A DNA stretch of 64,000 nucleotides, taken from NCBI GenBank assembly GCA_016218685.1, contig JACRDD010000002.1, positions 1 through 64,000 on the forward strand, written 5' to 3'. The DNA is from Desulfobacterales bacterium (lineage in GTDB: Bacteria > Desulfobacterota > Desulfobacteria > Desulfobacterales > Desulfosarcinaceae). The translations under genes and the position numbers were made by a program. The notes beneath the pieces are model-generated. The model searched no databases. It was not told the DNA's origin and worked only from the letters and a program-made list of their open reading frames with translations. Below are positions 23,711 through 52,480 of the stretch, one piece after another. How positions within the stretch are numbered: the first letter of the stretch is position 1; every line of letters starts with the position of its first letter.

Positions 23711-23858
23711 CTCGTGTCCGTTCAGGGATGAGATATTTTCGTCGCGTTCAAGGCGGACGAAAATTTTAACCGCAGGAATATATGGACATATTTCGAGGAT
23801 TAAAATTTTCGCCCAACGCCGAAATCGGCGAAAATAGCCATTCCTGTGCGGACACGGG
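23711..23858. repeat. Palindromic structured element, copy A (about 148 bp)
   Basis: The whole segment folds back on itself. Outer arms start CTCGTGTCCG and end CGGACACGGG. The inner stem CGAAAATTTTAA (23758-23769) is perfectly complementary to TTAAAATTTTCG (23800-23811). The tip is AATAT/ATATT with a 6-base loop. Between the stems lie the unpaired motifs CAAGGC (23749), ACCGCAGG (23769), TCGAGGA (23793) and CAACGCC (23814). The same motifs in the same order and spacing occur in copy B at 52336-52480 with unrelated stem sequences. The right arm abuts the stop codon of the UxaA-type gene. Confidence 0.85.
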
Positions 23859-25016
23859 CTAAAACGCCGGATGCAAAGTGTACATGCAGACGATGCCCTC
23901 CTGGCGGTTCACTTCGGCCTTGGTCGGTTCTCCGTCCAGAACGCGCGCGAGCAGTTGCGCGATCGTGCGTCCCACCGCATCCAGCGACGTTCCCTCCAGA
24001 ATCACGCCGGCATCGATGTCCATGTCGTCTTCCATGCGGCGATAGAGGGTGCTGGTGCTGGCCACCTTGACGACCGGCACGATGGGATACCCGACGGGAG
24101 TGCCGCGCCCGGTAGTAAAGAGGATTGCCTGGCAGCCGGCCGCGGCCAGCCCGGTCATGGATTCAGTGTCGTAGCCCGGGCCGTCCATCAGCACGACCCC
24201 CTTGGCGTCGGGCAGTTGGCCATAGGCCACCACCTGGGTGATCGGGCGGCTGCCCGATTTGACGATGCACCCCAGTGACTTCTCCTGAATCGAACTCATG
24301 CCGCCGTCCATGTTGCCGGGAGCGATCACGTAGGCGGCCAGGGGGCCCAGCAGGTCGTGGGTCAACTGCTCCGCCTCGGCCACCATGCTGCCGATCCGGC
24401 CGGCCACCTCCGGGTTGCAGGCGCGGCGCTGCAAGATGTGGCTGGTGCCGATCATTTCGGTATCTTCGGTAAGGATCACGGTGCCGCCGCGATCCACCAG
24501 CCAGTCCGAGACCCGGCCCACGGCGGGGTTGGCCGTGAGGCCCGAAAAGGCGTCCGAGCCGCCGCACTCCAGGCCCAGGCAGATGCGGTCCAGCGGCAGG
24601 GGCCGGCGCTCCTGACGGGCCGCGTCGGCCAGCAGGCCGTTGACGATCTCGATGCCCCGGGCCGTGGCGCGGCGGGTGCCGCCCAGCTTCTGGATCTCGA
24701 GATGGGCCACCGGTTTTCCCGCAAGGGCGATCTGCGCGGCCAGGCCTTCGGCCTTGATCATCTCGCACCCCAGGCCGACCACCAGCGCGGCGGCCACATT
24801 GGGATTTCGGCCCAGATTGGCCAGGACGCGGGTGTGCATCTCGATCTCCACGGCCCGGCCGCAGCCATGGCCGTGGTACAGGGGCACGACCTGGGGCACG
24901 GCCCGGGCGATGGCCGCCACCACGCCGTTGGCGCAGGCCACCGAAGGGATCACGGCCACGTGGTTGCGGATTCCGGCCGATCCGTCCGACCGCGCGAAGC
25001 CCAGAAAAGTCTCCAT
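23859..25016 (-). CDS. UxaA-type hydrolase, large subunit (altronate dehydratase C-terminal domain)
   Basis: A 385-residue protein matching the large domain of altronate/galactarate dehydratases, which dehydrate sugar acids. Landmarks are GFARSDGSAGIRNHVAVIPSV at the N terminus, HGHGCGRAVE near residue 48, GLECGGSDAFSG near 150, MDGGMSSIQEKSLGCIVKSG near 240 and FTTGRGTPVGYPIVPVVKV near 305. Cys residues in GHGCG and LECGGSD fit the iron-binding site of the family. In E. coli UxaA this domain is fused to a SAF domain; here the SAF part is a separate gene one base upstream. The true substrate (altronate, galactarate, sulfolactate-like) is not determined. Confidence 0.88.
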   Translation of the reverse strand: METFLGFARSDGSAGIRNHVAVIPSVACANGVVAAIARAVPQVVPLYHGHGCGRAVEIEMHTRVLANLGRNPNVAAALVVGLGCEMIKAEGLAAQIALAGKPVAHLEIQKLGGTRRATARGIEIVNGLLADAARQERRPLPLDRICLGLECGGSDAFSGLTANPAVGRVSDWLVDRGGTVILTEDTEMIGTSHILQRRACNPEVAGRIGSMVAEAEQLTHDLLGPLAAYVIAPGNMDGGMSSIQEKSLGCIVKSGSRPITQVVAYGQLPDAKGVVLMDGPGYDTESMTGLAAAGCQAILFTTGRGTPVGYPIVPVVKVASTSTLYRRMEDDMDIDAGVILEGTSLDAVGRTIAQLLARVLDGEPTKAEVNRQEGIVCMYTLHPAF

Positions 25017-25017
25017 A

Positions 25018-25287
25018 TTATTCCTTCTCCACCGGCATCAGATTGTGGGTGTGCACCCATTGGCCGGGCCGGATGGCCTCCTTGGCCCGGCCGATGACTT
25101 CGCCGTACTTGACAATAGGCGCCTGGGCCGCCAGGTCCTTTATGGCCACCTTGTGGCCGCACGGAATATCGGTGAACGCCACCAGGGCCGGGCCGCCCGG
25201 CCATTGCAAGGCTTCTCCCTTTTTGAAATCCCGTAGGGCCACGGCCACGTTGTCCTTGTCATCAACGAAGATCAGTTGGGATGCCAT
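25018..25287 (-). CDS. UxaA-type hydrolase, small SAF-domain subunit
   Basis: An 89-residue protein equal to the N-terminal SAF domain of altronate dehydratase. It shows DNVAVALRDFKKGE, DIPCGHKVAIKDLAAQAPIVKYGEVIG (the conserved core) and WVHTHNLMP at the C terminus. It pairs with the large subunit encoded right after it, and the two stop/start codons are one base apart. The start at 25287 has AAAGGAG in front; an in-frame extension to 25530 would overlap the small membrane protein and is rejected. Confidence in the pairing is high because the two-gene arrangement is common. Confidence 0.88.
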   Translation of the reverse strand: MASQLIFVDDKDNVAVALRDFKKGEALQWPGGPALVAFTDIPCGHKVAIKDLAAQAPIVKYGEVIGRAKEAIRPGQWVHTHNLMPVEKE

Positions 25288-25316
25288 GGAACACTCCTTT
25301 CGCGCGTCGCGGCCGG

Positions 25317-25520
25317 CTATATTCTGAAAAAATAAGGGATTGCCAGGAGTACGGTGCCAATAGAGACCGCCAGGATAGCGTTGGATACAAAATAGGGGAA
25401 GATCATGAGCGCTATCCCGCAAATGAGCGGAACCACCGCCCCCTGCTTTTTCCCGTAGATGAAGAAGCCCAGGCCGATCGAACCGAATAGCACGCTCCAG
25501 ATAAGGGACCAGCTGTCCAT
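25317..25520 (-). CDS. Small two-helix membrane protein, 67 residues
   Basis: A short hydrophobic protein, MDSWSLIWSVLFGSIGLGFF then a YGKKQGA turn, then two hydrophobic stretches ending IPYFFRI. It has two or three membrane helices with the basic loop YGKKQ. It resembles small membrane proteins of bacterial genomes often annotated as amino acid transport proteins, but with no known function. GGTGAGG precedes the ATG. It lies 29 bases ahead of the SAF subunit on the same strand and may share its transcript. Confidence 0.7.
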   Translation of the reverse strand: MDSWSLIWSVLFGSIGLGFFIYGKKQGAVVPLICGIALMIFPYFVSNAILAVSIGTVLLAIPYFFRI

Positions 25521-25670
25521 GCAGCCTCACCAGCGCGACGCCATAAAGTTAAAAACTAGACGGAATCTTCCTTGCTCATTGGATCATCCGTTCCAGTAAA
25601 TATTTATGGTGTAATTTCGTATGTAAGACAAGAGCGTGTTTGTGATCGCGGCACGAAACCGGCTGCTGGG

Positions 25671-25702
25671 CGGACGGTGCGGGCACACACCCGCACCGTC
25701 CG
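25671..25702 (-). terminator. Perfect 13-bp GC-rich hairpin after the cNMP-binding gene
   Basis: CGGACGGTGCGGG (25671-25683) and CCCGCACCGTCCG (25690-25702) are fully complementary with a 6-base loop. It lies downstream of the gene ending at 25762. There is no T-run, so it may act as a transcript end point or stabiliser rather than a classic intrinsic terminator. Confidence 0.5.
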
Positions 25703-25761
25703 GCGGCCGGTCAAAGCGCTGCCGGTGGATGAAATGCCGCTGTTGCACGTATTCACGCCGC

Positions 25762-26244
25762 TCAGACGACTTCCGTCGCCTCCTGAACCTGTCCGGTTCC
25801 ATAGGAGATGTTGTCCTCCACGGAGAGATATTCCGACAGGTGGGAAACAACGCTCACGAGGCGGTTGCCGAGCGTCAGGCTCAGGTTCTTGTAAAACAGC
25901 GCGGCACTGACGGGCTCCTCCATCATGAGCGTTTCGAGCTCATCGCGATCGAAGGCGATCAGCGCGGATGGTTCGGTACAGGTGGCCGAGGCGGTATAGA
26001 TGTAACGGCCGGTCAGGGCCGACCAGCCCAACGCCTCTCCGCCATGACGCGCCGTGTAGATGGAGCTGTCTCCGACGCTCAGCCGGACGCTGCCTTTGAT
26101 CAGGATGTAGAAGTGTTGCGCCGGCTTGCCTTCCTTGAACAGCACCTCGCCTGCTTCATGGGACGACTTGACGCCGATCGCCATGATCCGGGCGATGAAG
26201 TTCTTGTCCAAACCCCCAAGGATTTCCGCTTGTTTGAATTGCAT
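25762..26244 (-). CDS. Cyclic-nucleotide-binding domain protein
   Basis: A 160-residue single-domain protein with the cNMP-binding fold of the CRP family: GLDKNFIARIMAIGVKSSHEAGEVLFKEGKPAQHFYILIKGSVRL-type strands (about 10-55, with the GxxLFxEGxPA turn), GGEALGWSALTGR in the phosphate-binding cassette region, and a C-terminal helix. No helix-turn-helix follows, so it is not a DNA-binding CRP. The cassette lacks the canonical RTA Arg, reading YIYTASATC, so nucleotide binding is doubtful. The start at 26244 has GGGGAGGTGACC; the longer frame to 26397 is not needed. Confidence 0.78.
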   Translation of the reverse strand: MQFKQAEILGGLDKNFIARIMAIGVKSSHEAGEVLFKEGKPAQHFYILIKGSVRLSVGDSSIYTARHGGEALGWSALTGRYIYTASATCTEPSALIAFDRDELETLMMEEPVSAALFYKNLSLTLGNRLVSVVSHLSEYLSVEDNISYGTGQVQEATEVV

Positions 26245-26471
26245 GGTCACCTCCCCGGGCAAATGCCCTGTCAAAAAAGTTGGCTTTTGCATCCAAGGCG
26301 ATTCCGGGCGGCTGGCAGAGGGGGGCGTAACGACAAAAGAGCTGCGGGCCAATCCTTGAGGAAGATCATGGGCATCCATTCGGCGCAGCCGCTTCACCTG
26401 GTGCCGGCAACGCTTGAATGCAAACCGGAAAGCAGAAGATTAAGGCTTCCCCATGGATAAAGCAAGCGCGA

Positions 26472-27557
26472 CTAAGCACTTCTTCGCGGAACCCCCCGGG
26501 CGTAGAGCGTCTCTTCGATGGCTTTTTGGGCCCAGGCCGGGTCCTGCCTTTGCAGCCCCTGGGCATAGAGGGCCATCACCTCCCGGGCATAGGCCGTGGC
26601 TTTGTCGTAAACTTCCAAAACGGCGCGATCCATCGCCTCCCAGGCGCCTTGCTGCGCAAAGGCATTAAAACCGGCCTTGAGCTCGTCGAAAAGCAGGGGC
26701 ACCAAGCCGCCGCTGAAGGCCATGTAGAAACCCAAGGCGGCCGCGTCGCGGTCCGCGGCAAAGCGGCGCAACGGCCCGTGGGGCCCGCTGTCGGCCAACA
26801 TGTCTTTGAGGGTGCGGATCAGCAACTCCACCAGGGTGTGCGGAAAGTCGTTGAGCATGCGGCGCCAGGTGGCGCGCGCGAAGACCTGGTCCTCGAGTTC
26901 GCTCAGCTCATGCTGGATATAGGTGGCTTGCTGCACTTGCAGGATACGCGCAAGATGGCGCCGGATGCCGTCCGCCTGGGTGTCGGTCAGGTTGCAGCAA
27001 GCCTCCAGGGCAAAGGCCAGGGCCGCCCGGCCGCTATTGGGGATATAGGCGATCTCGTCCCACACGAACATGCGCGCCGCCTCGGTGCGCAGCACCACCT
27101 GGTCGTCTTGGACAAAGGCCGGTAGCGTCAGCAGGTCCCGAGCCAGTTCCTCCCCCAGGCGCCAGACGGTGCGGCCGCGCAGGGTACGGCGCTCCTCGAT
27201 GCGCGCCAGGAAAAAGGTGGGCTTCAGGCTGTGGGCGTAGCCCGCGCCGTAAAAGAGGCCCTGGGGCGCCAGCCGCGCATTGATCGCCAGGCTGTCGAAG
27301 GGATCGAAGGCGTTGTCACCGATGGTCAGCGGCTGGAACTCGGCTTCGGCCAGCGATTCCCAGAGTTCTTCGCGCCGGCCGATCCACTCCAGCACCGCGG
27401 CCGCCTCGTTTTCTTCCCAAGGCTGCAGACGCAGCTCCCATTTATAAAGGTCGCGCAGGCGCAATGCCAGACCGCAGATTGAGTAGAGACCCGCGTGGCG
27501 GGCGTCGGAAAGATCACAATTATGCCGCACTTGGCGGACGAGGCGTTCGACATCCAT
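26472..27557 (-). CDS. Uncharacterised protein of a Desulfobacterota-type family (Sfum_1244-like)
   Basis: A 361-residue soluble protein, mostly alpha-helical, with no signal peptide and no catalytic motif I can name. The start MDVERLVRQVRHNCDLSDARHAG and LYSICGLALRLRDLYKWE resemble what I recall of the Sfum_1244 family, seen mainly in Desulfobacterota; that match is from memory. A Trp/Glu-rich segment follows near residue 45. Two start codons lie six bases apart; the second (27557) is better spaced from GGAG. It follows rarD on the same strand after 78 bases. Confidence 0.6.
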   Translation of the reverse strand: MDVERLVRQVRHNCDLSDARHAGLYSICGLALRLRDLYKWELRLQPWEENEAAAVLEWIGRREELWESLAEAEFQPLTIGDNAFDPFDSLAINARLAPQGLFYGAGYAHSLKPTFFLARIEERRTLRGRTVWRLGEELARDLLTLPAFVQDDQVVLRTEAARMFVWDEIAYIPNSGRAALAFALEACCNLTDTQADGIRRHLARILQVQQATYIQHELSELEDQVFARATWRRMLNDFPHTLVELLIRTLKDMLADSGPHGPLRRFAADRDAAALGFYMAFSGGLVPLLFDELKAGFNAFAQQGAWEAMDRAVLEVYDKATAYAREVMALYAQGLQRQDPAWAQKAIEETLYARGVPRRSA

Positions 27558-27635
27558 TTCCATCTCCAGTCAGCAAACCACAAGTTGGATGTAATATGCC
27601 GACGCCCGGCCGGGCGTCAATGGCCGGCCCGGCCG

Positions 27636-28592
27636 TTATTTGAGCTCGAGCTGCCGACGGTGCGCCCACCACATGTCGGCCGTGTAAATGGCCAGACCGG
27701 CCCAGATGCAGCCGAAGGTGATGCCGTCGGCAGTGGTGAACGGCTCGCCGTAGAGTAGGACGCCGATCAGAAAATGGCCGGTGGGAGCGATGTACTGGGC
27801 AAAACCCAGGGTGGTCAACCGCAGCCGCCGGGCGGCCACGGCGAAGAGCATCAGCGGCAGCAGCGTGATGAGGCCGGCCCCCACCAGCAGCAAATCCGTG
27901 CGCGCATCGAAAAGGAGAAAAACCGCTTCGCCATTCAGATAAAGGGCTGTCAGCCACCCGGCGGCCACGGGCAGCAGCAGCATGGTCTCGACCATCAGGC
28001 CGGTGATGCTGTCGGTCTCCACCTGCTTGCGGATCAGGCCGTACAGGCCGAAACTGACGGCCAGGATCAGGGCCAGCCAGGGCACTTGACCGTACCCGAT
28101 TACCGAGAACAGCACGCCGGCGCTGGCGACGGCGATGGCCAGACGTTGCAGGGGCTGCGGCCGCTCGCCCAGAAAGCAATACCCCAGCAGCACATTGAAA
28201 AGCGGATTGATGTAATAGCCCAGGCTGCTCTGCAGGATCTCGCCATGGGTCACGGCCCAGATGAAGATGCCCCAGTTGGTGCTGATGGCCAGGGCGCTGC
28301 CGGCCAGGGCCAGCAGGGCCTTGGGGCGCCGGAAGAGGGCGGCCACGCGGCCCCAGCGCCCGGACAGCAGCACGAAGGCCAGCAGGAAGAGCCAGGCCCA
28401 GATCAAGCGTTGCAAGAGAATTTCCCAGGCCGACGCCCGCGAACCGAACTGGTTGAAGTAGATCGGGAAAAGGGCCCAGATGCCGAAGGCGCCGATGGCC
28501 GCGGCGGCACCGAGAGGAGCGTTGTCCTGAGGGTTTGCTCCGAAAGCGGAAATGCTTTTTTCGTTTGCAGCCATTTTCGGCGATGATTTCAT
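27636..28592 (-). CDS. rarD: RarD-type EamA/DMT family transporter
   Basis: A 318-residue inner-membrane protein with ten hydrophobic segments in two EamA repeats. The start of the membrane part, GAFGIWALFPIYFNQF, and NWGIFIWAVTHGEILQSSLGYYINPLFNVLLGYCFLGER-type segment are diagnostic of RarD; further on are FGLYGLIRKQ, and LTTLGFAQYIAPTGHFLIGVLLYGEPF. RarD was linked to chloramphenicol sensitivity, but its substrate is not established. There is an extra N-terminal tail of about 25 residues. AGGAAGAG precedes the ATG, and it begins 30 bases after hrpB ends. Confidence 0.93.
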   Translation of the reverse strand: MKSSPKMAANEKSISAFGANPQDNAPLGAAAAIGAFGIWALFPIYFNQFGSRASAWEILLQRLIWAWLFLLAFVLLSGRWGRVAALFRRPKALLALAGSALAISTNWGIFIWAVTHGEILQSSLGYYINPLFNVLLGYCFLGERPQPLQRLAIAVASAGVLFSVIGYGQVPWLALILAVSFGLYGLIRKQVETDSITGLMVETMLLLPVAAGWLTALYLNGEAVFLLFDARTDLLLVGAGLITLLPLMLFAVAARRLRLTTLGFAQYIAPTGHFLIGVLLYGEPFTTADGITFGCIWAGLAIYTADMWWAHRRQLELK

Positions 28593-28622
28593 CTATTTCT
28601 CTTCCTGCCGATCTTCGATTAT

Positions 28623-31184
28623 TCAGTGGCGCGGCTTGGCCCGGGCCGTGGGGGCGGCGCTCAGGGGGTCGTCGGGCCAGTGGTGTTTGGGATAGCGGCC
28701 CTTGAGCTCTTTTTTCACGGCCGGGTAGCTGTTGCGCCAGAAGCCGGCCAGGTCCCGGGTAATCTGGGCCGGCCGCCCGGCGGGCGAGAGCAGGTGCAGT
28801 TGCAGGGCCAGCCGGCCGTCGGCGATGGTGGGCGTCTCGGTGCAGCCGAACAACTCCTGGAGGCGCACGGCCAGCACCGGCGGATCGCTGCCGTAGTCGA
28901 TGGGCCGGCGGCTGCCACTGGGCACCACGATGTGCGTCGGGGCCAGGCGCTCCACCAACTGCTGCTGGCGCCAGGTGAGCCGGTTGCGTAGCGCGCCGGA
29001 AAGATCGAGGCGCGCCAGGGCTTTGCGGCTGGTGACGCCTTGCAGATAAGGGGCCAGCCAGAGGTCCAAATCGGCGGCCAGGGCTGCATCGGAGAGATCG
29101 GGCCAATCTTCTACTCCCGCTTCGAGGCGGCGCAGCAGCAACACCCGGGCCTGCCAGTTGCGCAGGGCCGGGGTCCAGGGCAGGGCATCGAGGCCCATTT
29201 TGCGGATGGCCGCGATCATGGCGGCCGTTACGACCTGGGGGTCGGGGCGCGCCAGCGCTTCGCTGCGCAGCACCAATTCGCCCAGCATCCAACGCCGTTC
29301 GGCGCTCAAGGCCTGGCGCGAGTCATCCCAATAGGTATCTTCGCGGACTTGAATGCGCCCTTCGAATTGGGCCGTCAGGGTGTTGCGGTCATAGGCCGCG
29401 GCCAGGAAGATGCGCGCCTCGCGGCGCTCGCCGTCCATTTCGGCGACGACCAGGCCCTCGTGGACCCCCAGAGGGTCGGGCGGATCGAAGTAGGCGCCCC
29501 GGCCGTTGCTCAAGCGGTAGCGGCCCAGGCTGCCGGGCCGCTGCAGGGCGATGCGGTCCGGATAGGCCCAGGCCAGCATGCGGCCCACATGCGCAGCGGC
29601 TTGCGAACCGCCTTTGAGTCCCAGGCGCTGGTGCAACTGGGCCGCGACTTGGACGATACGCCGCAGGGCGCCCGGGTCCGCCTCACCGTTGGCAACGGCT
29701 GTCGGCCGATGTTGCCTGAAGGCACCCAGCACCTCCAGCCGCAGGCGCAGGTCGGCATCCCGGCTGCCGGAAGCAAAATGGAGCGGATCGCGCTCGCTCA
29801 AAATGGCTGCCAGGTCACTGGCTGCGGCGCCCAAACCCTCGGCCTGGGCGGCCAGGAGCATATGCGCCAGGCGGGGATGCAGCGGCAGTTGGGCCATGCG
29901 GCGGCCGTGGGCGGTGATTTGGCCCTGGGCGTCCACGGCCCCCAGCTCGGTCAGCAGGGCCTTGGCCTGCTCGACCGCACCAACCGGGGGCGGGTCCAGC
30001 CAGGCGAGTTCGCCGGGCGCGGCCGCGCCCCACAAGATCAGCTCCAGGACCAGGCCGGATAGATCGCTATCGAGGATCTCGGGCCGCTGGCGGGCCGCCA
30101 GCGTGGCGTGGTGGGCCTCGCTCCACAGGCGGTAGCAGATGCCGGCTTCCAGGCGGCCGGCCCGGCCGCGGCGCTGATCGGCCGCGGCCTGGGAGACCGG
30201 CAGCGTGACCAAGCGGGTCATGGCCGCCCGGGGATCGAAACGCGGCGCGCGCGCAAGGCCGCTGTCCACCACCACGCGGATGCCTTCGATGGTCAGGCTG
30301 GTCTCGGCGATGGATGTGGCCAGGACGATCTTCTGCCGGCCGGACGGGGGCGGGGCGATGGCGGCATCCTGTTCGGCCCGGGAGAGATTGCCGTAAAGGG
30401 GGGCCACCTGCCAGCGCTCCGGCAGGCCGGCCGCTGCCAGCAGGCGGGCCACCCGGCGGATCTCGGGGGCGCCGGGCAGGAACACGAGGATATTGCCTTC
30501 GCCGGCCGCCACGGACCGCACGATGATGTCGGTTACCGCGCGCTCGATGGGTTTGATCGGCGGCGCCGGCACATAGCGGGTCTCCACGGGAAAGGCGCGG
30601 CCCTCGCAGCGGATCAGCGGGGCGTCATTGAGCAGGGCCGCCACCGGCACGGGATCGAGGGTGGCCGACATCACCAGCAATCGCAATTCTTCATTGAACG
30701 CCGCCTGCACCTCCCGGCACAACGCCAGCCCCAAATCGGCGTCCAGATTGCGTTCGTGAAACTCGTCGAATATCACCAGGCCGACCCCGCTCAGGCCCGG
30801 ATCGGATTGCAGCCGGCGGGTAAGCACCCCTTCGGTGACCACCTCGATGCGCGTGGCCGAACTCACCTTGCTCTCCAGTCGGATGCGGTAGCCCACGGTC
30901 TGGCCTACTGCCTCGCCCAGCAGGTCGGCCATGCGCCGGGCCGCGGCCCGGGCCGCCAGGCGCCGCGGCGCCAGCAGCAGCAGCTTGCGGCCAGCCAGCC
31001 AGGCGGCATCCAGCAGTGCCAGCGGCACCGTGGTGGTCTTGCCGGCCCCGGGCGGCGCCACCAGCACGGCGGCCTTGTGGCGCTCCAGGGCTGCCCGGAG
31101 CTCGTCCACCACCGCGGCCACCGGCAGGTGCATTTTGATTCGCTCGGTTTCTCGATCGGTCATAATAGTTGCGGCATAGCACAT
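28623..31184 (-). CDS. hrpB: ATP-dependent helicase HrpB
   Basis: An 853-residue DExH-box RNA helicase. Motif I is APPGAGKTTTVPLALL, motif II is FDEFHERNLDADL, motif III SATLDP, motif V ATSIAETSLTI and motif VI QRRGRAGR, followed by the HrpB-specific C-terminal domain (ending with LAGFWRNSYPAVKKELKGRY and PRH). Length fits E. coli HrpB (about 809) plus a longer N terminus. The start is uncertain: Met codons at 31184, 31163 and 31133 are all possible and none has a strong ribosome site; the family usually begins near LPVAAVVDEL, which favours the last. It leads an operon with rarD. Confidence 0.94.
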   Translation of the reverse strand: MCYAATIMTDRETERIKMHLPVAAVVDELRAALERHKAAVLVAPPGAGKTTTVPLALLDAAWLAGRKLLLLAPRRLAARAAARRMADLLGEAVGQTVGYRIRLESKVSSATRIEVVTEGVLTRRLQSDPGLSGVGLVIFDEFHERNLDADLGLALCREVQAAFNEELRLLVMSATLDPVPVAALLNDAPLIRCEGRAFPVETRYVPAPPIKPIERAVTDIIVRSVAAGEGNILVFLPGAPEIRRVARLLAAAGLPERWQVAPLYGNLSRAEQDAAIAPPPSGRQKIVLATSIAETSLTIEGIRVVVDSGLARAPRFDPRAAMTRLVTLPVSQAAADQRRGRAGRLEAGICYRLWSEAHHATLAARQRPEILDSDLSGLVLELILWGAAAPGELAWLDPPPVGAVEQAKALLTELGAVDAQGQITAHGRRMAQLPLHPRLAHMLLAAQAEGLGAAASDLAAILSERDPLHFASGSRDADLRLRLEVLGAFRQHRPTAVANGEADPGALRRIVQVAAQLHQRLGLKGGSQAAAHVGRMLAWAYPDRIALQRPGSLGRYRLSNGRGAYFDPPDPLGVHEGLVVAEMDGERREARIFLAAAYDRNTLTAQFEGRIQVREDTYWDDSRQALSAERRWMLGELVLRSEALARPDPQVVTAAMIAAIRKMGLDALPWTPALRNWQARVLLLRRLEAGVEDWPDLSDAALAADLDLWLAPYLQGVTSRKALARLDLSGALRNRLTWRQQQLVERLAPTHIVVPSGSRRPIDYGSDPPVLAVRLQELFGCTETPTIADGRLALQLHLLSPAGRPAQITRDLAGFWRNSYPAVKKELKGRYPKHHWPDDPLSAAPTARAKPRH

Positions 31185-31350
31185 CCGGCGGCGGGCTGCC
31201 TACCGCCAATGTGTGCCTGCCGCGACTGCGGCCCGGCAATCGTATCGGAATCGGTATCGGCATCGGAATCGAATTTGACATCCGCGCGGCGGGACGCCTA
31301 AACTGCCCGTAGCAAGGCCCTTCCAATGCCTCACCCGGCGGAAAGTATTT

Positions 31351-35661: not shown

Positions 35662-35678
35662 GGGTATCGGCGCTTTCC

Positions 35679-42621: not shown

Positions 42622-42648
42622 GCGCCAGCGGCCTGTTCGAACATCGTC

Positions 42649-43845: not shown

Positions 43846-43888
43846 GTCCCATCGTCTTTTTTGAAACCGGCAGGCTTTGTCCGGGCAC

Positions 43889-43923
43889 AAAAAAAGGCGG
43901 CTTTACCCTGGGGTAACGCCGCC
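43889..43923 (-). terminator. Intrinsic terminator of the HU gene
   Basis: Read on the minus strand: GGCGGCGTTACC, loop, GGTAAAGCCGCC, then seven T. The stem is 12 bp with one mismatch. It ends 22 bases after the HU stop codon and is a textbook intrinsic terminator. Confidence 0.92.
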
Positions 43924-43945
43924 CTTCGAAATACTCTTCTAAACG

Positions 43946-44218: not shown

Positions 44219-44272
44219 CTGAACTCCTCCTTTGAAAGTTTGTAAAGACCCGCCAGTGGTGCTTCTTTAAGG

Positions 44273-44301
44273 CATTTACAGTCTGGTCTATCCTTTGTCA
44301 A
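44273..44301 (-). promoter_or_regulatory. Sigma-70 promoter of the HU gene
   Basis: On the minus strand: perfect -35 TTGACA (44301-44296), a 17-base spacer, and -10 TAAATG (44278-44273) about 55 bases upstream of the HU start. A good match for a strong constitutive promoter. Confidence 0.65.
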
Positions 44302-44444
44302 CAGGGAAATGTTGATATTACGTGGCTTTTTTCAGGTCCGGGCGTTCGGGCCGGCCCGGGATAGCCACTTGCGCCGGAAGATCGCCGCCAAACCGCCCCC
44401 TGGCAGAGACCGCGGATGTCCGAAGAAACGGATTCCCGGCAGGG

Positions 44445-45983
44445 TCAATTCACCAACGCCGCCGGGCGATCCAACCCGCGATATTGAATCGCTTCGGCCA
44501 CATGCAAGCCGGCAATCTCTTCTGCTTGCGCAAGATCGGCAATGGTGCGGGATATTTTCAGAAGGCGGTTCAGGGCACGGGCGGAAAGCCCCAGCCGGTC
44601 GATGGCCGCCTCCAATAAGCGGCTGGTGGCGGCATCGATGGCGCAATGCTTCTTGATGTGACGGTTGCCCATATGGGCGTTGCAGAACATTTTCGTGCGC
44701 CGGAAGCGTTGCACCTGGATTTTACGGGCCGCCACCACGCGATCGCGGATGGTTTGCGAGGACTCCGCCGGACGCTCGCCCACCAAATCGGTATAAGATA
44801 CGGCCGGGGCCTCGATATGAATGTCGATGCGATCCAGCAACGGACCGGAGATCTTGGCGCGGTAACTTTCGATCTGCTTGGCGGAGCATCGGCAGGCGTG
44901 ACGCGGATCGCCGTAATAGCCGCAGGGGCAGGGATTCATGGCCGCCACCAGCATCACCCGGGCCGGATAGGTGATGCTCGAACTGGCCCGGGAGATCGTC
45001 ACCTGGCCGTCCTCCAGGGGTTGGCGCAATACTTCGAGCACATGCTTCTTGTACTCCGGCAGCTCGTCGAGGAACAGGACCCCGTTGTGGGCCAGGCTGA
45101 CCTCTCCCGGCCGCGGAAGCGCGCCGCCGCCGATCAAGCCGGCATCGGAGATGGTGTGGTGGGGCGAGCGGAAGGTGCGCTCGGTGATCAAGGCTTGCTC
45201 CCGGGCCAGCATGCCTGCCACACTGTATACCTTGGTGGTCTCGATGGCCTCCTCGAACGTCAGCGGCGGCAGGATGGACGGCAAGCGCCGGGCCAGCATG
45301 GTTTTACCGGCACCGGGCGGCCCGATCATCAGAAGATTGTGGCCGCCGGCCGCGGCGATCTCCAACGCGCGTTTGACATGCTCCTGGCCTTTGACTTCGG
45401 CGAAATCTTCATGGCCGCATTGAAGGGGAGTAAAAAGCCGATCGATATCGACTTGTTCAGCCGGCAGCGGTTCGCGACCGCGCAGAAATTCCACGGCCTG
45501 GGAAAGGTTTTGGGCGCCGTGCACACAGATCCCATCCACCACCGCCGCCTCCTTGCGGTTGGCATGCGGCACCACAATGCCTTGAAAACCGGCTTGCTTG
45601 GCGGCCAGGGCCATGGGCAGCGATCCGGCGACGGCCTTGATGCGTCCATCCAGGCTCAGCTCCCCCAGGAAGAGAAACCGTTCGAGCACCGCGTGGGGCA
45701 GGATGGCCCCGGCAGCCAGGATTCCCAAGGCCATGGGCAAATCGAAACCCGTGCCTTCCTTTTTAATATGCGCCGGTGCCAGGTTCACGGTGATCCGATC
45801 GTCGGGGAAAGCATATCCCGAATTCTTGATGGCCGCCTTGACCCGCTCTTTGCTCTCCTTGACTGCCGTCTCGGGCAATCCCACGGTGACAAAGGCGGGC
45901 AGGCCCTGGGCGATATCCACCTCCACTTCCACCAGATAGGCATCCACGCCAATGACTGCACTGCTCAATACCTTGGCCAGCAC
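44445..45983 (-). CDS. comM: YifB/ComM family Mg-chelatase-like AAA ATPase
   Basis: A 512-residue AAA+ ATPase. An N-terminal Lon-protease-like domain (about 1-170, with the block [24 protein letters not shown]-like) precedes the chelatase-type ATPase with Walker [16 protein letters not shown] and Walker [10 protein letters not shown], then a C-terminal zinc-finger-like [19 protein letters not shown]. ComM is a branch-migration helicase for natural transformation; other homologues have no known role. GTG start 8 bases after AAAGGAGG. Confidence 0.94.
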
Positions 45984-46072
45984 CTTGGGCCTCCTTTACT
46001 TTGGGTCCATCATAAAGAAATGGAGCTATCCACGATCGGCAGACGACGAAAAAGGCCCCCCTGGCCAACACA

Positions 46073-46084
46073 AACAAATTTGTT
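46073..46084. promoter_or_regulatory. 12-bp perfect palindrome, operator candidate
   Basis: AACAAATTTGTT is a perfect palindrome overlapping the first bases of the -35 element of the promoter that points towards lpxC. This is the place for a repressor or activator site; the binding protein is unknown. Confidence 0.4.
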
Positions 46085-46112
46085 GTCAAAAGGACGCATC
46101 ATGGGATATTAA
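46083..46112 (+). promoter_or_regulatory. Candidate promoter for the lpxC leader
   Basis: TTGTCA at 46083-46088, 18-base spacer, TATTAA at 46107-46112. Five and four of six bases match consensus. A transcript from here would have a leader of about 390 bases before lpxC. Confidence 0.4.
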
Positions 46113-46510
46113 CTGTGTCGATTTTAACACATCCCCATGGGAGGATGTGGGGGGCGGCATGCATTGTACCCCGGCACCAATGGTCGTATTTTCTTTCATG
46201 TTAGGCTGTTACGCGGCAGACGACATCTGCGGCACGTCCTTTGCGTATAGAAATCGCCCGGGAGGCCGGCATCCAAGATCGCAAGTGGCGGCTGCACAAA
46301 CCTTCGCTGGGGTTGTGAGCGCGCCAAGCAGCACCGGAAGCCGAATCGGAATAAGGCGTGTGAGGAAGACAGCAGGTGCTGGGAAAGCGTCGGAGAAGCT
46401 CCCGGTCCGACGCGTGAAGGCCCACCCGAGAAGGGCGTCCGCGAAGAGAACGCAGCCGCCGCGAATTTAAATAACAGGCTTGGAATGAGGCCGCAAGGAA
46501 ATATGCCGCT

Positions 46511-47428
46511 ATGAATCAGAATCATTTGCAGCGAACCATCGATAAAGAAGCGCGCTGTTCGGGTGTCGGTGTGCATTCGGGCAAACAGGTCAACCTGACG
46601 GTCAAACCGGCGCCCATTAACCACGGCATCAAATTCATGCGCGTCGATCTGCCCAACCATCCTTACGTTTCAGCGCGCTTCAATAAGGTTGTGGACACCA
46701 GCCTGGCCACGGTCATCGGCGAAGACGGCTTCATTATCTCCACCATCGAACACCTGATGTCCGCCCTCGCCGGCCTGGGCATCGACAATGCCATGGTGGA
46801 GGTGGATAACTACGAACTGCCCATCATGGACGGCAGCGCCCTACCCTACGTAACCATGCTCAAATCGGCGGGGATGCAGACCCAATCCGCTCCACGCCAT
46901 TTTTTCGTGGTCCAGGAACCGGTGGAGCTGGAAGAAAAGGGCAAATTCGTCGGAGTTTATCCGGCCCCCAATTTCCGCATCACCTGCACCATCGAATATA
47001 GCCATTGCCCGCTGATCCGAACTCAAACCCAGGACCAGATCATTACCCCCGGGGTTTTCGAGAAGCAGATCGCGCCGGCACGCACCTTCGGGTTTCTGCA
47101 TGAAGTGGAAACCATGAAGAAGTTCGGCCTGGGGCAAGGTGGATCGCTGGACAATGCGGTGGTCGTCGACCAGGACAAGGTGCTCAACCCCGACGGCCTG
47201 CGCTTTAAAGACGAATTTGTCCGTCACAAGATGCTGGACTGCATTGGCGATTTCTCATTGATTGGCCTGCCGATCATGGGCCATGTGGTGGCCCGCTGTT
47301 CCGGCCACGCCTTCAATCACGCCTTCCTCGAACGTTTTTTCCTCCGAAAAGGCGCCTGGCAAACCCGCACCCTCGAGCAGGGCGACCCATGGCCGGCAAC
47401 GGCCTTGAAACAGCTTGCTAACCGATAA
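46511..47428 (+). CDS. lpxC: UDP-3-O-acyl-N-acetylglucosamine deacetylase
   Basis: A 305-residue zinc enzyme that commits UDP-acyl-GlcNAc to lipid A synthesis. It has STIEHLMSAL with zinc ligand His81, KMLDCIGDFSLIG with the second ligand pair, and SGHAFNHAFL with the catalytic His. It proves a lipopolysaccharide-type outer membrane. AAGGAA lies about ten bases before the ATG. It heads a run with DUF4390, NtrY and NtrX genes. Confidence 0.98.
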   Translation: MNQNHLQRTIDKEARCSGVGVHSGKQVNLTVKPAPINHGIKFMRVDLPNHPYVSARFNKVVDTSLATVIGEDGFIISTIEHLMSALAGLGIDNAMVEVDNYELPIMDGSALPYVTMLKSAGMQTQSAPRHFFVVQEPVELEEKGKFVGVYPAPNFRITCTIEYSHCPLIRTQTQDQIITPGVFEKQIAPARTFGFLHEVETMKKFGLGQGGSLDNAVVVDQDKVLNPDGLRFKDEFVRHKMLDCIGDFSLIGLPIMGHVVARCSGHAFNHAFLERFFLRKGAWQTRTLEQGDPWPATALKQLANR

Positions 47429-47503
47429 CCGCTCCTCTATGATGTCCAAGGCATGTGCCTGTTGCCGATGGATGATTGACAGCCCGCACCCCCTGATATC
47501 ACG

Positions 47504-48076
47504 ATGAAATGCAACGCCCTAAGATTCCTGATCCTGATTTTGGCTGCCTGTGTTTTGCTGCCGGCAGCCTCGGCTACGGGCGCCCAGGATGCGATGCTGG
47601 CCAACATCATCGTAACCAATACCCGCGACGATCTGCTCCTCTACCTGACGGTCAAGAATGCCTTTTCACCCGAAATCGAAGACACGATCAACCGCGGAGT
47701 GCCCGCCACTTTCTCCTTTTACCTGAATCTCTACCGCGTCCGTCCATTCTGGCCGGACAAAGCCATCACCACCGCCAAAGTCACCCATACGCTCAAATTC
47801 GATATCCTGCGCAAAGAGTACACGGTGACCCGCTCGTGGGACGGCAACACGCCCCTGACATTCAAAACCTTGGAAGAGGCCGAAAAGCGCATGACGGAAA
47901 TAGACAGTCTCTCCATCGTGGCGCTGCAGCGGCTGGAACCGGGCAAACGGTACCAGATCCGCGCCAAAGCCAAGCTGGACAAACTGACCCTGCCCTTTTA
48001 TTTGCACTATGTCCTTTTCTTCGTTTCCCTTTGGGATTTCGAGACCGATTGGTACACCATCGATTTTATCTATTAA
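47504..48076 (+). CDS. DUF4390 family exported protein
   Basis: A 190-residue protein with a signal peptide (about residues 1-27, ending ATG-A) and a beta-rich domain seen in DUF4390 proteins: LYLTVKNAFSPEIEDTINRGVPATFSF-type segment, then LRKEYTVTRSWDGN, and a conserved end FFVSLWDFETDWYTIDFIY. Role unknown; the gene usually precedes an NtrY-like kinase, suggesting that it helps sensing in the periplasm. That is inference from neighbourhood. Confidence 0.82.
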   Translation: MKCNALRFLILILAACVLLPAASATGAQDAMLANIIVTNTRDDLLLYLTVKNAFSPEIEDTINRGVPATFSFYLNLYRVRPFWPDKAITTAKVTHTLKFDILRKEYTVTRSWDGNTPLTFKTLEEAEKRMTEIDSLSIVALQRLEPGKRYQIRAKAKLDKLTLPFYLHYVLFFVSLWDFETDWYTIDFIY

Positions 48077-48121
48077 ATAATAAGCGCCGACGGTCCGCCC
48101 ATCCGCGCAGCCTTCAATGCC

Positions 48122-50353
48122 ATGAGCCCTCGCGACAAAAATACCAAAAGCATGCTGACGGTCGAAGAGAAACGTCGGCGCAAGCGCGAGCTGATTCTGA
48201 TCGGCCTGATCATACCGGTGGTGGCCCTGCTGGCCCTGGGGCTCAACCGCCACCTTTACTTCCGGGCCGATTTTCCCGTTTCCAACCAGATCTTGATGTT
48301 CATCCTGATCAACATCAATTTGCTGTTGCTGTTGCTGTTGATATTCCTGGTGTTCCGCAATTTGGTCAAATTGCTCTACGACCGCAAGCGCAAGGTGTTG
48401 GGCGCCAAACTGCGCACCCGCCTGGTCATGGCTTTCGTGCTGTTGACGCTGCTGCCCACCACGGTGCTCTTTCTGTTCTCCATCAGCTTCATCACCAGCA
48501 GCATCGAGTTCTGGTTCAACGTGCCGGTGGAGCAGGCCTTGGAAAACTCCTTGCGGGTCGGGCACTCCATGTACCAGCGCGCCGAAAACGAGAGCCGCTA
48601 TCTTTTGGAGCGCATCGCCTACCAGGTGGAAAAACGGGCCATGATCGATGGGGGCAAGACAACTTCGCTGGCCAACTACATCCAGGTGGTCCAGCGGGAG
48701 TTCAACATCGATGCCATCGAGTTCTACGACACCGGCGGCGATCGGAAAACCTACGCCCTGAGGCCCCAACTGGAAGACAAACCCTTCGAGCGCATCACGG
48801 CCGGTGATCTGCTCAAGCCGCCCAACGACACCGGGGTGCACACCGTCTCCACGACGGTCAACGACGGTGAACTGTTTCGGACGATCGGGGCGGTACCGTT
48901 CGGCGCCGCGGCCCGCGAGGCCAAAGGCTTTATCGTTATCGCCACCTATATTCCGGCGGAGCTTTCCGAAAGCATGAGCTCCATCGTACGCGGTTTCGAG
49001 GAGTACCAGCAGATCAGCCTGCTCAAGCGGCCCATTCAAACTTTTTACTACATCACCTTGTCGGTGGTAGCCCTGCTGGTGGTGTTCTGCGCGGTGTGGC
49101 TTGGCTTTTACCTGGCGCGCACCATCACCATTCCCATCATGCGCCTGGCCGATGGCACGCGCCGCGTGGCCGAAGGCGATCTGAGCTTTGCCTTGGATGT
49201 ACAAGCCGACGACGAGATCGGCAGCCTGGTGGATGCTTTCAACAAAATGACCCGCGACCTGCGCATCGGCCGCGAACAGTTGGAACTCTCGGCCCAGATG
49301 TTGCGCGGCCAGAATATCGAGATCGAAGCCCGGCGGCGCTACATGGAGATCGTGCTGCAAAACGTGTCGGCCGGCGTCATCACCCTGGACGCCAAGGGCA
49401 TCGTCACCACCTTCAACACCTCGGCTGAAAAGATGCTCAACCTGAAAGCCGCCGATATTCTCCAGAAGAGCTACAAGGTGTTGCTCTCCGGTCCGCGCCT
49501 CAATCTGGCCGAAGAGATCATGACCTCCTTGAGCGGCACCAAGCAATCCACCATGGAGATCCCGTTGCGCACTTCCATCGACGGCCGTCAGCGCAGTTTT
49601 CTGATCTACATCAACGTGCTCAAGGATGAATCCGGCCAGCACATGGGCCTGGTGGCGCTCGTGGACGATCTCACCGAGCTGGAAAAGGCCCAGCGCATGG
49701 CCGCCTGGCGCGAAGTGGCCCGGCGCATCGCCCATGAAGTCAAAAACCCGCTCACGCCCATCAGCCTCTCGGCCCAGCGGCTCAAACGCAAGTATGCCAA
49801 GCAGATCAACGAACCGGTCTTCGACGAATGCACCCAGACGATCATCACCCATTGCGAACTGATCCGCAACCTGGTCAACGAATTCTCCACCTTCGCGCGC
49901 TTCCCCACGGCCGATCCCAAGCCGTGCCTCCTGGCGCCGATCATCGAGGAGACCGTGGCGCTCTACAAAGAGGGCCATCCCAATGTCCAGTTCCAGATGC
50001 GCATGCAAGATGCATTGCCCCCGATGAACCTGGACCGCCAGCAGATCAAGCAGTCGATGATCAATCTGGTGGACAATGCCCTGTCGGCCATCCGCCGCCA
50101 CGGCACGATTACCATCGCGGTCTCCCATGACCCGATCCTCAAACTGGTGCGCATCGAGGTGGCCGACGACGGCGTCGGCATCTCCAACGAAGACAAGATC
50201 CGCCTGTTCGAACCCAATTTCTCCACCAAGAAGACCGGCATGGGGCTCGGCTTGACCATCGTCAACAGCATCATCAGCGACCATGGCGGCATGATCAGCG
50301 TCCAGGACAATCATCCCCAGGGCGCCAAGTTTGTCATCGAACTGCCGGCTTGA
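48122..50353 (+). CDS. ntrY: NtrY-like membrane histidine kinase
   Basis: A 743-residue kinase with NtrY topology: three N-terminal TM helices (about 24-42, 60-80, 97-120), a periplasmic loop to about 300, a fourth TM (TFYYITLSVVALLVVFCAVWL-like), HAMP, a PAS domain (about 400-500), HisKA with EVARRIAHEVKNPLTPISLS, and an HATPase domain (MINLVDNALSA, VADDGVGIS, GMGLGLTIV). It would phosphorylate the NtrX regulator that follows at once. In alphaproteobacteria NtrYX controls nitrogen and redox genes; in this phylum the signal is not known. Confidence 0.92.
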   Translation: MSPRDKNTKSMLTVEEKRRRKRELILIGLIIPVVALLALGLNRHLYFRADFPVSNQILMFILININLLLLLLLIFLVFRNLVKLLYDRKRKVLGAKLRTRLVMAFVLLTLLPTTVLFLFSISFITSSIEFWFNVPVEQALENSLRVGHSMYQRAENESRYLLERIAYQVEKRAMIDGGKTTSLANYIQVVQREFNIDAIEFYDTGGDRKTYALRPQLEDKPFERITAGDLLKPPNDTGVHTVSTTVNDGELFRTIGAVPFGAAAREAKGFIVIATYIPAELSESMSSIVRGFEEYQQISLLKRPIQTFYYITLSVVALLVVFCAVWLGFYLARTITIPIMRLADGTRRVAEGDLSFALDVQADDEIGSLVDAFNKMTRDLRIGREQLELSAQMLRGQNIEIEARRRYMEIVLQNVSAGVITLDAKGIVTTFNTSAEKMLNLKAADILQKSYKVLLSGPRLNLAEEIMTSLSGTKQSTMEIPLRTSIDGRQRSFLIYINVLKDESGQHMGLVALVDDLTELEKAQRMAAWREVARRIAHEVKNPLTPISLSAQRLKRKYAKQINEPVFDECTQTIITHCELIRNLVNEFSTFARFPTADPKPCLLAPIIEETVALYKEGHPNVQFQMRMQDALPPMNLDRQQIKQSMINLVDNALSAIRRHGTITIAVSHDPILKLVRIEVADDGVGISNEDKIRLFEPNFSTKKTGMGLGLTIVNSIISDHGGMISVQDNHPQGAKFVIELPA

Positions 50354-50385
50354 AGCAAAAGGCGGGCGACGAAAGGATCGGTTGC

Positions 50386-51753
50386 ATGTTTCCAACCATT
50401 TTGATCGTGGACGACGAAGCCTCTATTTTAAAATCCCTGCAGGGCCTGCTCACCGACGAGGGGTTCGAGGTCAACACGGCCGCCAACGGCTATGAAGCAT
50501 TGCAACTCATCGAAGCCGAAGCGCCCGACCTGGTGTTGATGGACATCTGGATGCCGGGCATCGACGGCCTGGAGACGCTCAAGGAGATCAAGAAGACCAA
50601 CCCCCACATCCAGGTGATCATGATCACGGGCCACGGCACCATCGAAACCGCGGTGCAGGCCACCAAATTGGGGGCCTTCGATTTCATCGAAAAACCGCTC
50701 TCCATCGACCGGGTCATCGTGGCCATCAACAACGCCCTCAACTTTCGCCGCCTGGAAGAAGAGAACCGCTACCTGCGCAAGAAGACCATCGACAAGCACG
50801 CTATCACCGGCATCAGCCCGCTGATCCAGAACCTGCGCGAAACCATCGCCAAGGTGGGGCCCAGCGAGAGCTGGGTGCTGATCAAGGGCGAAAACGGCAC
50901 GGGCAAAGAATTGGTGGCACGCAACATTCACAACCTGAGCCAGCGGTCCTCCAAACCGCTCATCGACGTCAACTGCGCCGCCATCCCCGAGGAGCTGATC
51001 GAAAGCGAGCTGTTCGGACATGAGAAGGGCGCCTTCACCGGCGCCAACAGCAAGAAGATCGGCAAGTTCCAATTGGCCGATCAGGGTACGCTCTTCCTGG
51101 ACGAGATCGGCGACATGAGCCTGAAGACCCAGGCCAAGATTTTGCGTGTATTACAGGAAAAGCAGTTTCAGCGCGTGGGCGGCAGCCGCACCCTGCAGGT
51201 GGATGTGCGCGTCATCGCGGCCACCAACAAGAAGCTGGAAGAAGAGATCGCCAAAGGCCAGTTTCGGGAAGATCTTTACTACCGGCTCAACGTGGTGCCC
51301 ATCGAGGTGCCCAGTCTTAAGGACCGCTTGCAGGACATCCCCATGCTGATGGATGCTTTCCTGGAAGAGGCGGCCCACAAGAGCCGGGCACCCAAGAAGG
51401 ACGTGACGCCCGAAGCCGTGGGCCTGCTCCAGCAGTACGGTTGGCCCGGCAATGTGCGCGAGCTGAAGAACTTGGTCGAGCGTCTGGTGATCATGACCGC
51501 CGACAAGATCATCACCGCCGAACACCTGCCCAAACCGTACAATCCCCAGGTGGCGCCGGCCGAATCCCAACCCCTGGAAGACTTGTTCACCATCAAGGAG
51601 CTCAAGGAGGCCCGGCAGCTCTTCGAACATTATTTCATTCAGCGCAAGCTGCGCGAAAACGAAAACAACGTCACGCACACGGCCAAATCCATCGGCGTGG
51701 AGCGCAGCTACCTGCACCGGCGCATCAAAAAGCTGGATCAGGGCAAAGCGTAA
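50386..51753 (+). CDS. ntrX: NtrX-like sigma-54-dependent response regulator
   Basis: A 455-residue activator. The receiver has phosphoacceptor Asp53 in LMDIWMP, the AAA+ domain has Walker A GENGTGKE and GAFTGA in HEKGAFTGANS, Walker B LFLDEIGD, and the C terminus has a Fis-type helix-turn-helix with THTAKSIGVERSYLHRRI. The start at 50386 is chosen over a TTG at 50350 that overlaps the ntrY stop; AAAGGA precedes it. It would activate sigma-54 promoters for unknown targets. Confidence 0.94.
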   Translation: MFPTILIVDDEASILKSLQGLLTDEGFEVNTAANGYEALQLIEAEAPDLVLMDIWMPGIDGLETLKEIKKTNPHIQVIMITGHGTIETAVQATKLGAFDFIEKPLSIDRVIVAINNALNFRRLEEENRYLRKKTIDKHAITGISPLIQNLRETIAKVGPSESWVLIKGENGTGKELVARNIHNLSQRSSKPLIDVNCAAIPEELIESELFGHEKGAFTGANSKKIGKFQLADQGTLFLDEIGDMSLKTQAKILRVLQEKQFQRVGGSRTLQVDVRVIAATNKKLEEEIAKGQFREDLYYRLNVVPIEVPSLKDRLQDIPMLMDAFLEEAAHKSRAPKKDVTPEAVGLLQQYGWPGNVRELKNLVERLVIMTADKIITAEHLPKPYNPQVAPAESQPLEDLFTIKELKEARQLFEHYFIQRKLRENENNVTHTAKSIGVERSYLHRRIKKLDQGKA

Positions 51754-51769
51754 GGAGAGGATACGGGCC

Positions 51770-52324
51770 GTGCGCATCATCGCCGGAGCCTTCAGGGGCC
51801 GCAAGCTTTCGGCCATCCGCGGCATTGCCATCCGGCCCACGGCCGATCGCGTGCGCGAGGCGCTCTTCAACATCCTGGCCACGCGACCGGTGGAGGCCAC
51901 AGTGCTGGATCTGTTCGCCGGCACCGGCGCCCTGGGATTGGAGGCCCTGAGCCGCGGCGCCCTCCGGGCGGTCTTTGTGGATCAAGCCCCCACCGCCCTC
52001 CAGGCCATCCGCAAGAACATCCAGTTGTGCCGCATGGAAGCCCACACCCAAGTGCTCCAATGGAACATCCTCAACAACCTGAACTGCCTGCGGGACCAGG
52101 CCGGCCGCTTCGACCTGATCTTCATTGACCCGCCCTATAACCGCGGCCTGATCCCGCCCGCCCTGGCCCACCTCGTCGCCCTGGAACTGGCTGCCCCCGA
52201 AGCCCTGATCGTAGCCGAGCACGATCCGGCTGAAGCCATCGCCCCGCCCTCGCCCGGTTGGAAAAACACAGACCAGCGGCGCTACGGCCAGACCCAGCTA
52301 AGCTTTTTCTCCAAAACGTCCTAG
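51770..52324 (+). CDS. rsmD: 16S rRNA (guanine-966-N2) methyltransferase RsmD
   Basis: A 184-residue SAM-dependent methyltransferase. It begins MRIIAGAFRGRKL, a fingerprint of RsmD, and has LDLFAGTGALGLEALSRGA as motif I and FIDPPYNRG as the catalytic motif IV. It modifies G966 in the 30S subunit. GTG start after AAGGAGAG, 16 bases after ntrX. In many bacteria rsmD and coaD are adjacent; here two minus-strand genes lie between them. Confidence 0.94.
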   Translation: MRIIAGAFRGRKLSAIRGIAIRPTADRVREALFNILATRPVEATVLDLFAGTGALGLEALSRGALRAVFVDQAPTALQAIRKNIQLCRMEAHTQVLQWNILNNLNCLRDQAGRFDLIFIDPPYNRGLIPPALAHLVALELAAPEALIVAEHDPAEAIAPPSPGWKNTDQRRYGQTQLSFFSKTS

Positions 52325-52335
52325 CTCACAGATCG

Positions 52336-52480
52336 TTGGCCATCCAGAAATGGTAGCTTGGAGCCCAGATCAAGGCCGGCCCGTTTTTTAGACCGCAGGC
52401 GTAGCGGGCCTACGTCGAGGACCTAAAAAACGGGCCAACGCCGATATGGGCTGCGAGATGCCGTTTCTGGATGGCCATAG
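52336..52480. repeat. Palindromic structured element, copy B (about 145 bp)
   Basis: One long imperfect inverted repeat between two convergent genes. Outer arms TGGCCATCCAGAAA and TTTCTGGATGGCCA pair perfectly. The inner stem GGCCCGTTTTTTAG (52378-52391) is fully complementary to CTAAAAAACGGGCC (52423-52436), and the tip is CGTAG/CTACG with a 5-base loop. The unpaired motifs CAAGGC (52371), ACCGCAGG (52392), TCGAGGA (52415) and CAACGCC (52436) are the same as in copy A at 23711-23858 at almost identical spacing. Structure is conserved while stem sequence is not. Confidence 0.88.

Follow-up and report, generated by a model that had tools for sequence, protein, structure and literature searches.

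Two palindromic, gene-less elements, copies A and B, in the 64,000-nucleotide window analysed here (Desulfobacterales bacterium, assembly GCA_016218685.1, contig JACRDD010000002.1, positions 1 to 64,000) raise the question of what keeps their stems paired while the stem sequences change. The preliminary description of this DNA took such covariation as the signature of a functional hairpin of RNA or DNA. The evidence presented here points elsewhere: both copies are very probably widespread palindromic elements of Desulfobacterota that lack genes and resemble miniature inverted-repeat transposable elements (MITEs). It is also likely that this MITE-like mobile family has one core common to several types of end. 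The role given here to the fold is put forward tentatively.

Measured from terminal repeat to terminal repeat, copy A occupies 23714..23855 on the + strand (142 bp, class 1 ends GTGTCCGTTC..GCGGACAC) and copy B occupies 52336..52478 on the + strand (143 bp, class 1 ends TTGGCCATCC..GGATGGCCAT). Both locations had been correctly identified, and the bounds given here correct the earlier extents, as the hairpin reaches the terminal repeats. On the + strand, the core motifs CAAGGC, CCGCAGG, TCGAGGA and CAACGCC lie at 23749..23754, 23770..23776, 23793..23799 and 23814..23820 in copy A, and at 52371..52376, 52393..52399, 52415..52421 and 52436..52442 in copy B. With the second motif taken as ACCGCAGG, which starts at 23769 and 52392, the start-to-start spacings are 20, 24 and 21 in copy A and 21, 23 and 21 in copy B, in agreement with the preliminary description. 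The pattern CCGCAGGN{8,30}TCGAGGN{8,30}AACGCC has two matches in the window and none in 100 shuffles. Relative to 200 shuffles per copy, folding of the + strand has a z of -9.3 (copy A) and -12.2 (copy B), and folding of the - strand a z of -7.4 and -9.7, respectively. Each stem had been called perfectly complementary; the arms are in fact broken by bulges and T-G wobbles in both copies. A covariance model, R1, was built from 28 elements, with seeds chosen by pattern. At E values up to 1, it finds in the window copy A (span 23710-23859, 112.4 bits), copy B (span 52332-52482, 132.3 bits) and nothing else, a match by construction because both copies are among the 28 seeds.

The prediction of a multicopy family, made from these two copies, was borne out. 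In the source genome (3.8 Mb in 45 contigs, 64.6% complete) the pattern occurs nine times, and its reverse has no match. These nine copies belong to three types that are near-identical within type: four A-like copies (ends TGTCCATCC), one B and four C-type copies (ends TAGAAGCCATTTCAAAA). With E values up to 1 allowed, R1 matches 14 places in this genome, and 12 of these matches are strong (E up to 1.2e-20). Extension of the covariance-model search to other Desulfobacterota, as had been suggested, gave at least 150, 145, 128, 125, 38, 22 and 21 copies in seven chosen relatives (E up to 0.01), the figure of 150 comprising all candidates scored in that genome and therefore being a lower bound. 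The two lowest counts belong to G001 and G006, which have R1 matches despite no earlier pattern match; G061 has at least 141 copies. In a Desulfobacterota sample scored under stricter filters with 10 candidates per genome, so that the counts are lower bounds, the element is present in at least 71 of 297 genomes and at least 57 of 199 genera (E up to 1e-6). A pattern-based figure, 26 genomes out of 97, does not count carriers cleanly, because the pattern also matches coding sequence by chance. Carriers include Desulfobacterales bacterium PL24a_bin.4, Desulfobacteraceae bacterium DS_bin_10, the Olavius algarvensis Delta 4 endosymbiont, a plasmid of Deltaproteobacteria bacterium Smac51 and Desulfobacterales bacterium DeMMO2_31, in which the element is interrupted at a contig end.

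A broad pattern scan of genome contigs, made to look for spread beyond the phylum, gave at least 120 stretches among the matches listed. When 100 of these were run through R1, four matched (L045, L085, L087 and L120), each in a record whose title names Desulfobacterales or Desulfobacteraceae, and the remaining 96 did not. Among the other 20, folding indicated elements in L149 (Olavius algarvensis Delta 4 symbiont) and in L152 (PL24a_bin.4). A stretch from a Proteobacteria record (L070) passed a crude hairpin test and failed R1. In the pattern search of the 97 genomes, the matches at L011, L012, L019, L026 and L028 (in G073, G003, G023, G083 and G043) were not recognised as elements on folding. 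Plasmid records gave one match to copy A and none to copy B, and phage records searched with copy A gave none. Copy A, the only copy compared with 20,395 E. coli records (word size 11), matched none of them and showed no similarity to ERIC. Elements overlap predicted frames in 2 of 40, 2 of 36 and 1 of 42 cases. Elements at L342 5914-6063 and L361 11956-12105 lie within long predicted frames, as if translated in frame, and three pattern matches spaced 141 bp at G037:C108:60612-60944 are tandem head-to-tail elements.

The ends of these elements connect them to insertion sequences. Class 1 (A- and B-type) copies have the ends GTGTCCATCC and a 6-bp target duplication. In G068 (40 elements in 373 kb, both ends required to be within 3 mismatches), the flanks at 6 bp have an identity of 0.78, versus 0.49 in shuffles (maximum 0.56), and the duplication is exact for 12 of the 40 elements, versus a shuffled mean of 0.65. 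At the other duplication lengths from 2 to 13, no flank agreement was observed in this genome, where the target motif is Y|TAGCTA|R. A decayed related insertion sequence with a piece of an ISNCY/DUF772 transposase is present in G010. Fifteen of 97 relatives contain such a piece (E up to 1e-10); the matches number 19 in G022, 15 in G028 and 5 in G029. A full ISNCY transposase scores 443 bits against the family cut-off of 325. At 18 of 21 ISNCY loci in relatives, paired GTGTCCATCC-type ends lie 1.60-1.70 kb apart; 10 of these 18 have an exact 6-bp duplication and 2 more have 5 of 6 positions identical, the pair with the best duplication having been taken where several end pairs fit. The A and B types agree with the ISNCY group, since end repeat, target and duplication length are in common. 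The profile library says only ISNCY; the subgroup is presumably ISDol1. In the source genome, contigs C4 (end), C10 (start) and C25 (end) break 135-139 bases into one repeat that begins GTGTCCATCCAGAAATA and is preceded by CAGTTA, TAGCTA and TAAGTA; at these breaks lies a multicopy insertion sequence that has class 1 ends and was left unassembled. Class 1 ends were also seen on minimal palindromes, 58-61 bp long, that lack the core (G000:C9:63961-64021 and G010:C246:21181-21238).

The same core is found between other ends. Class 2 copies in G061 have a core in common and end in either GAAGCCATCTCAAAATT or GGGGCTGTTTCTAAATT. A 2-bp direct repeat flanks 16 of 22 elements in the GAAGCCATCTCAAAATT group and is TA in 11 (shuffled mean 9.1, maximum 12), and TA is present on both sides of 10 of 11 elements in the GGGGCTGTTTCTAAATT group, where shuffling cannot test pairing. 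In G028, an element of ~0.9 kb, whose end is GAAGCCATTTCAAAACC and which is flanked by TA on either side, contains a piece of an IS5-family transposase (NF033580 barely above its cut-off, DUF4096), and this end is that of the source genome's C-type. Class 3 elements, with the ends GAGACCTTTG, have a 5-bp repeat with an identity of 0.67 versus 0.30 (maximum 0.49), exact in 4 of 15; a partner insertion sequence was not found for this class. G078 has yet another end type, and the phylum sample contains additional variants. A scan for unpaired ends in G061, G068 and G078 showed solo ends and no partner. At least three end types, whose duplications measure 6, 2 and 5 bp, enclose one core hairpin; these differing lengths argue for different transposases.

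Four traits of MITEs are present: terminal inverted repeats (classes 1-3), duplications of fixed length (6 bp in G068, 2 bp in G061, 5 bp in class 3), autonomous insertion sequences with matching ends (ISNCY for class 1, the IS5 family for class 2) and multiple dispersed copies. The terminal repeats, duplications and partner insertion sequences indicate that the copies have transposed, and the idea of a functional hairpin at each place was accordingly set aside.

The covarying fold that gave rise to that idea is nonetheless real. A structure-free alignment, A4, was made of 50 elements; three belong to the source genome, and the other 47 come from one plasmid and 46 further genomes. For the 36-pair core structure, 94.1% of cells are standard pairs, versus 73.2% when shuffled and at most 50.3% when slid, both sides have changed in 26 of the 36 pairs, and the covariation score is 0.556 versus 0.172; these pairing figures are favoured by the derivation of the structure from the same alignment with RNAalifold. 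The columns CAAGG, CCGCAGG, TTCGAGGAT and ACGC.G mostly have identities of 0.8-1.0, a conservation that is partly by choice because the model seeds were picked by pattern. Near-invariant asymmetric loops are found in elements of 48 genomes or records. The consensus folding energy is -40.3 kcal/mol for the top strand versus -15.9 for the opposite strand, and between genomes G-T mismatches number 185 versus 24 A-C, or 50 versus 24 once five fixed wobble columns are removed. Shared stem sequence, which was to have counted against covariation, is observed within subfamilies and is not observed between subfamilies or genomes. The view that the element is not a named family was upheld: with the gathering threshold applied, Rfam gave no match in the window, and at four related loci, with E values up to 1 allowed, it gave none over the element, the only match there being anti-hemB at 20.3 bits (49.5 needed), outside the element. 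No description of the family was found in the literature searched, a scope that leaves subscription papers largely outside.

Within genomes, a different picture of the fold is obtained. Among 124 elements from five genomes (contig-end-cut elements, low scorers and two with long inserts excluded), sporadic, non-recurrent mismatches in single copies comprise 175 G-T and 173 A-C (42:47, 45:36, 52:61, 20:19 and 16:10 by genome), with no sign of selection for pairing on one strand. Because the two kinds are equal in single copies, decay after insertion seems near-neutral, and selection seems to act on which copies spread. In three tight subfamilies, 2.2-2.8% of motif cells and 3.7-4.4% of inner-stem cells diverge from consensus, and in two mixed sets the values are 2.1% and 3.6% for motifs versus 12.9% and 22.5% for inner stems, motif divergence being lowered by motif-based detection. 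At L340 (G078, 11700-14500), a small gene stands in tandem copies with an element beside each. The middle element differs from its neighbours in its inner stems and has the same outer arms, so that both arms have changed between recent duplicates. The spacing of these three elements at 725 bp had suggested a cassette array, as for integron attC sites, a reading that was rejected because this array is a tandem duplication of the small gene.

The orientation of the elements follows replication in some genomes. In G029, a single 7.3-Mb contig, 91 of 115 elements obey one rule set by GC-skew half (p 2e-10; one second-strand duplicate match removed), as do 33 of the 39 best-scoring ones. The rule is also followed by 42 of 60 elements in G022 (p 0.003) and, by skew of the contig piece, by 31 of 41 in G078 (p 0.001). 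Orientations are clustered in G028 (best split 60/79, matched by 0 of 200 shuffles) and G022 (44/60, reached by 3 of 200); the samples comprise 79 of 97 matches in G028 and 60 of 71 matches on contig 1 of G022. Relative to flanking genes in G029 (n=46), 27 elements are opposite, 5 with, 8 between convergent and 4 between divergent genes, and 2 at edges. By rough gene calls, 11 of the 12 elements between converging or diverging genes obey the replication rule; the share of gene bases that are co-directional with the fork is 55%. Copies of ISNCY under the same rule number 9 of 17 in G022 and 2 of 4 in G029. Since the end repeats are nearly symmetric, a bias in orientation implicates the core. 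With the G-rich strand taken as the leading strand, the strand that folds better corresponds in sense to the nascent lagging strand. According to the title of one paper, bacterial transposable elements can be oriented through interaction with the sliding clamp. In G078 (2.1 Mb; L323-L342), 34 of 37 placed elements have a gene start or end no more than ~20 bases from their 3' side, and 2 of 37 have one that close to their 5' side, an asymmetry that contrasts with the symmetric ends of the element (rough gene calls).

How the fold came to covary can be explained in other ways, the most serious being that covariation arose without selection. Template switching perfects palindromes and, by copying the changes of one arm to the other, could make an ordinary MITE mimic a structured RNA. 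Consistent with this, whole stretches of both arms change jointly, including between the G078 tandem duplicates and between the two G061 end types around one core, and the sporadic mismatches have no wobble bias. Template switching should, however, erase unpaired loops, whereas the asymmetric loops are near-invariant across those 48 genomes or records, and it does not account for the 50:24 excess of G-T over A-C outside the fixed wobble columns. As a full explanation it is therefore rather unlikely; it may well operate together with selection on the loops. Less plausible still is a functional RNA family, such as a regulator, 3' end signal or terminator, that acts in place and is merely spread by transposons. 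The strong covariation and near-invariant loops would fit such a family, as would fixed T-G wobbles that set one strand in five genomes, a run of T after the hairpin in three tandem G078 copies and the closeness of the G078 3' side to gene boundaries. It is made improbable by the balance of sporadic mismatches, by the lack of an Rfam match in the window and at the four related loci, and by inconsistent orientation relative to genes (with:opposite, 12:4 in G068, 7:7 in G061, 9:16 in G078 and 5:27 in G029). Single-stranded movement driven by a Y1 (HUH) transposase, as for REP/RAYT- or IS200-like elements, would suit a high-copy hairpin with strand-specific mismatches and replication-linked orientation in two genomes, yet is very improbable given duplications of 6, 2 and 5 bp, which REP insertion is not known to produce, and ends in common with DDE-type insertion sequences.

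The MITE-like family with a shared core leads to the following possible mechanism. By binding its ends, transposases of several families would mobilise the element in trans. The palindrome may fold during replication, and copying of one arm from the other would then place new ends on both arms. The asymmetric core loops would persist if continued spread were confined to copies with a correctly folding strand, and this spreading step is most likely tied to replication, when one strand would be exposed. As the inner hairpin is constant and the outer ends are those of different transposons, the fold itself appears selected; a host function for each copy is not needed to explain the data. A bolder form of this proposal, in which the core module, kept by its single-strand fold throughout the Desulfobacterota, is a parasite of several unrelated transposases, repeatedly takes the ends of whichever insertion sequence is active by copying each new end between its arms, and spreads by a replication-coupled single-stranded step that sets its orientation relative to the fork, is doubtful.

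Several observations weigh against this account. Movement itself was not observed, and neither window copy retains a clear target duplication, the flanks being ACGCTC / GGGCTA for copy A and AGATCG / AGCACT for copy B (3 of 6 positions identical in each). No ISNCY matches (E up to 1e-10) are found in the element-rich genomes G068, G078, G048, G054 and G061, so that the mover there has been lost or is a different one, and the IS5 partner is known from one locus in one genome. The various ends share a loose pattern, so that divergence along with the transposases, rather than exchange, may account for some of them. Neither strand is favoured by the sporadic mismatches, and local skew has no effect in the fragmented genomes G068 (16/37) and G061 (17/32). 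In G028 the skew is unclear and replichores are not drawable from 4-kb samples, and in G029 replication and transcription are not fully separated because orientation also tracks flanking genes.

The surroundings of the window copies differ. Both had been placed directly after stop codons, which holds for copy B, situated between two converging stops, and for one side of copy A. Copy A is flanked by two minus-strand genes; it adjoins the stop codon of frame 23859-25016, and its other neighbour, frame 22253-23677, faces it with its start. The genes here (22253-25016) encode an aldo/keto reductase and a galactarate/altronate dehydratase. Beside copy B, frames 51770-52324 (+) and 52483-53832 (-) have their stops converging on the element, and the genes (51770-53832) encode a Cons_hypoth95 methyltransferase, which we take to be RsmD-like, and a periplasmic binding protein.

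Comparison with known systems separates the ordinary parts of this finding from the unusual. Bacterial MITEs, as reviewed in one source, are short, gene-less and mostly intergenic, with terminal inverted repeats, target duplications, a stable transcript fold and copy numbers of tens to hundreds (PMC10969869). All of these traits, as given there for ERIC, Correia/NEMIS, RUP and Coxiella QMITE2, are found in the present element, which differs in having a core common to end types with differing duplications, loops conserved over the phylum and replication-linked orientation in two genomes. In end repeat and in type of duplication, class 1 matches the insertion sequences of ISNCY (NF033593) and class 2 those of the IS5 family (NF033580). 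Unlike the present element, these insertion sequences carry a transposase, and ISNCY is without orientation bias in the small samples above; the core was not seen in the part of them that lies between the ends. REPs and REPINs are many-copy hairpins thought to be mobile in trans, with predicted single-strand folds and a 5' tetranucleotide guide (PMC3116915, PMC6006769), REPs being 20-40 bp long (PMC3733652); the present elements are ~142 bp with target duplications. Rickettsia palindromic elements are palindromic repeats of ~150 bp in many families, some within genes (PMC10969869). The present elements are similar in size and palindromy, and few overlap predicted frames.

The MITEs, end repeats and partner insertion sequences are thus ordinary, known parts. 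What is unusual is a phylum-wide core fold that is common to end types with different duplications and is oriented by replication in two genomes. MITEs are usually viewed as deletion derivatives with ends tied to one insertion sequence and an unimportant interior. The present element reverses this picture, with a conserved interior and varying ends. It also serves as a warning that covariation in palindromic DNA repeats need not imply a functional RNA at each site. If confirmed, these results would mean that a structured interior can decide which MITEs spread, that one passenger can exploit several transposases and that replication can orient a nearly symmetric element.

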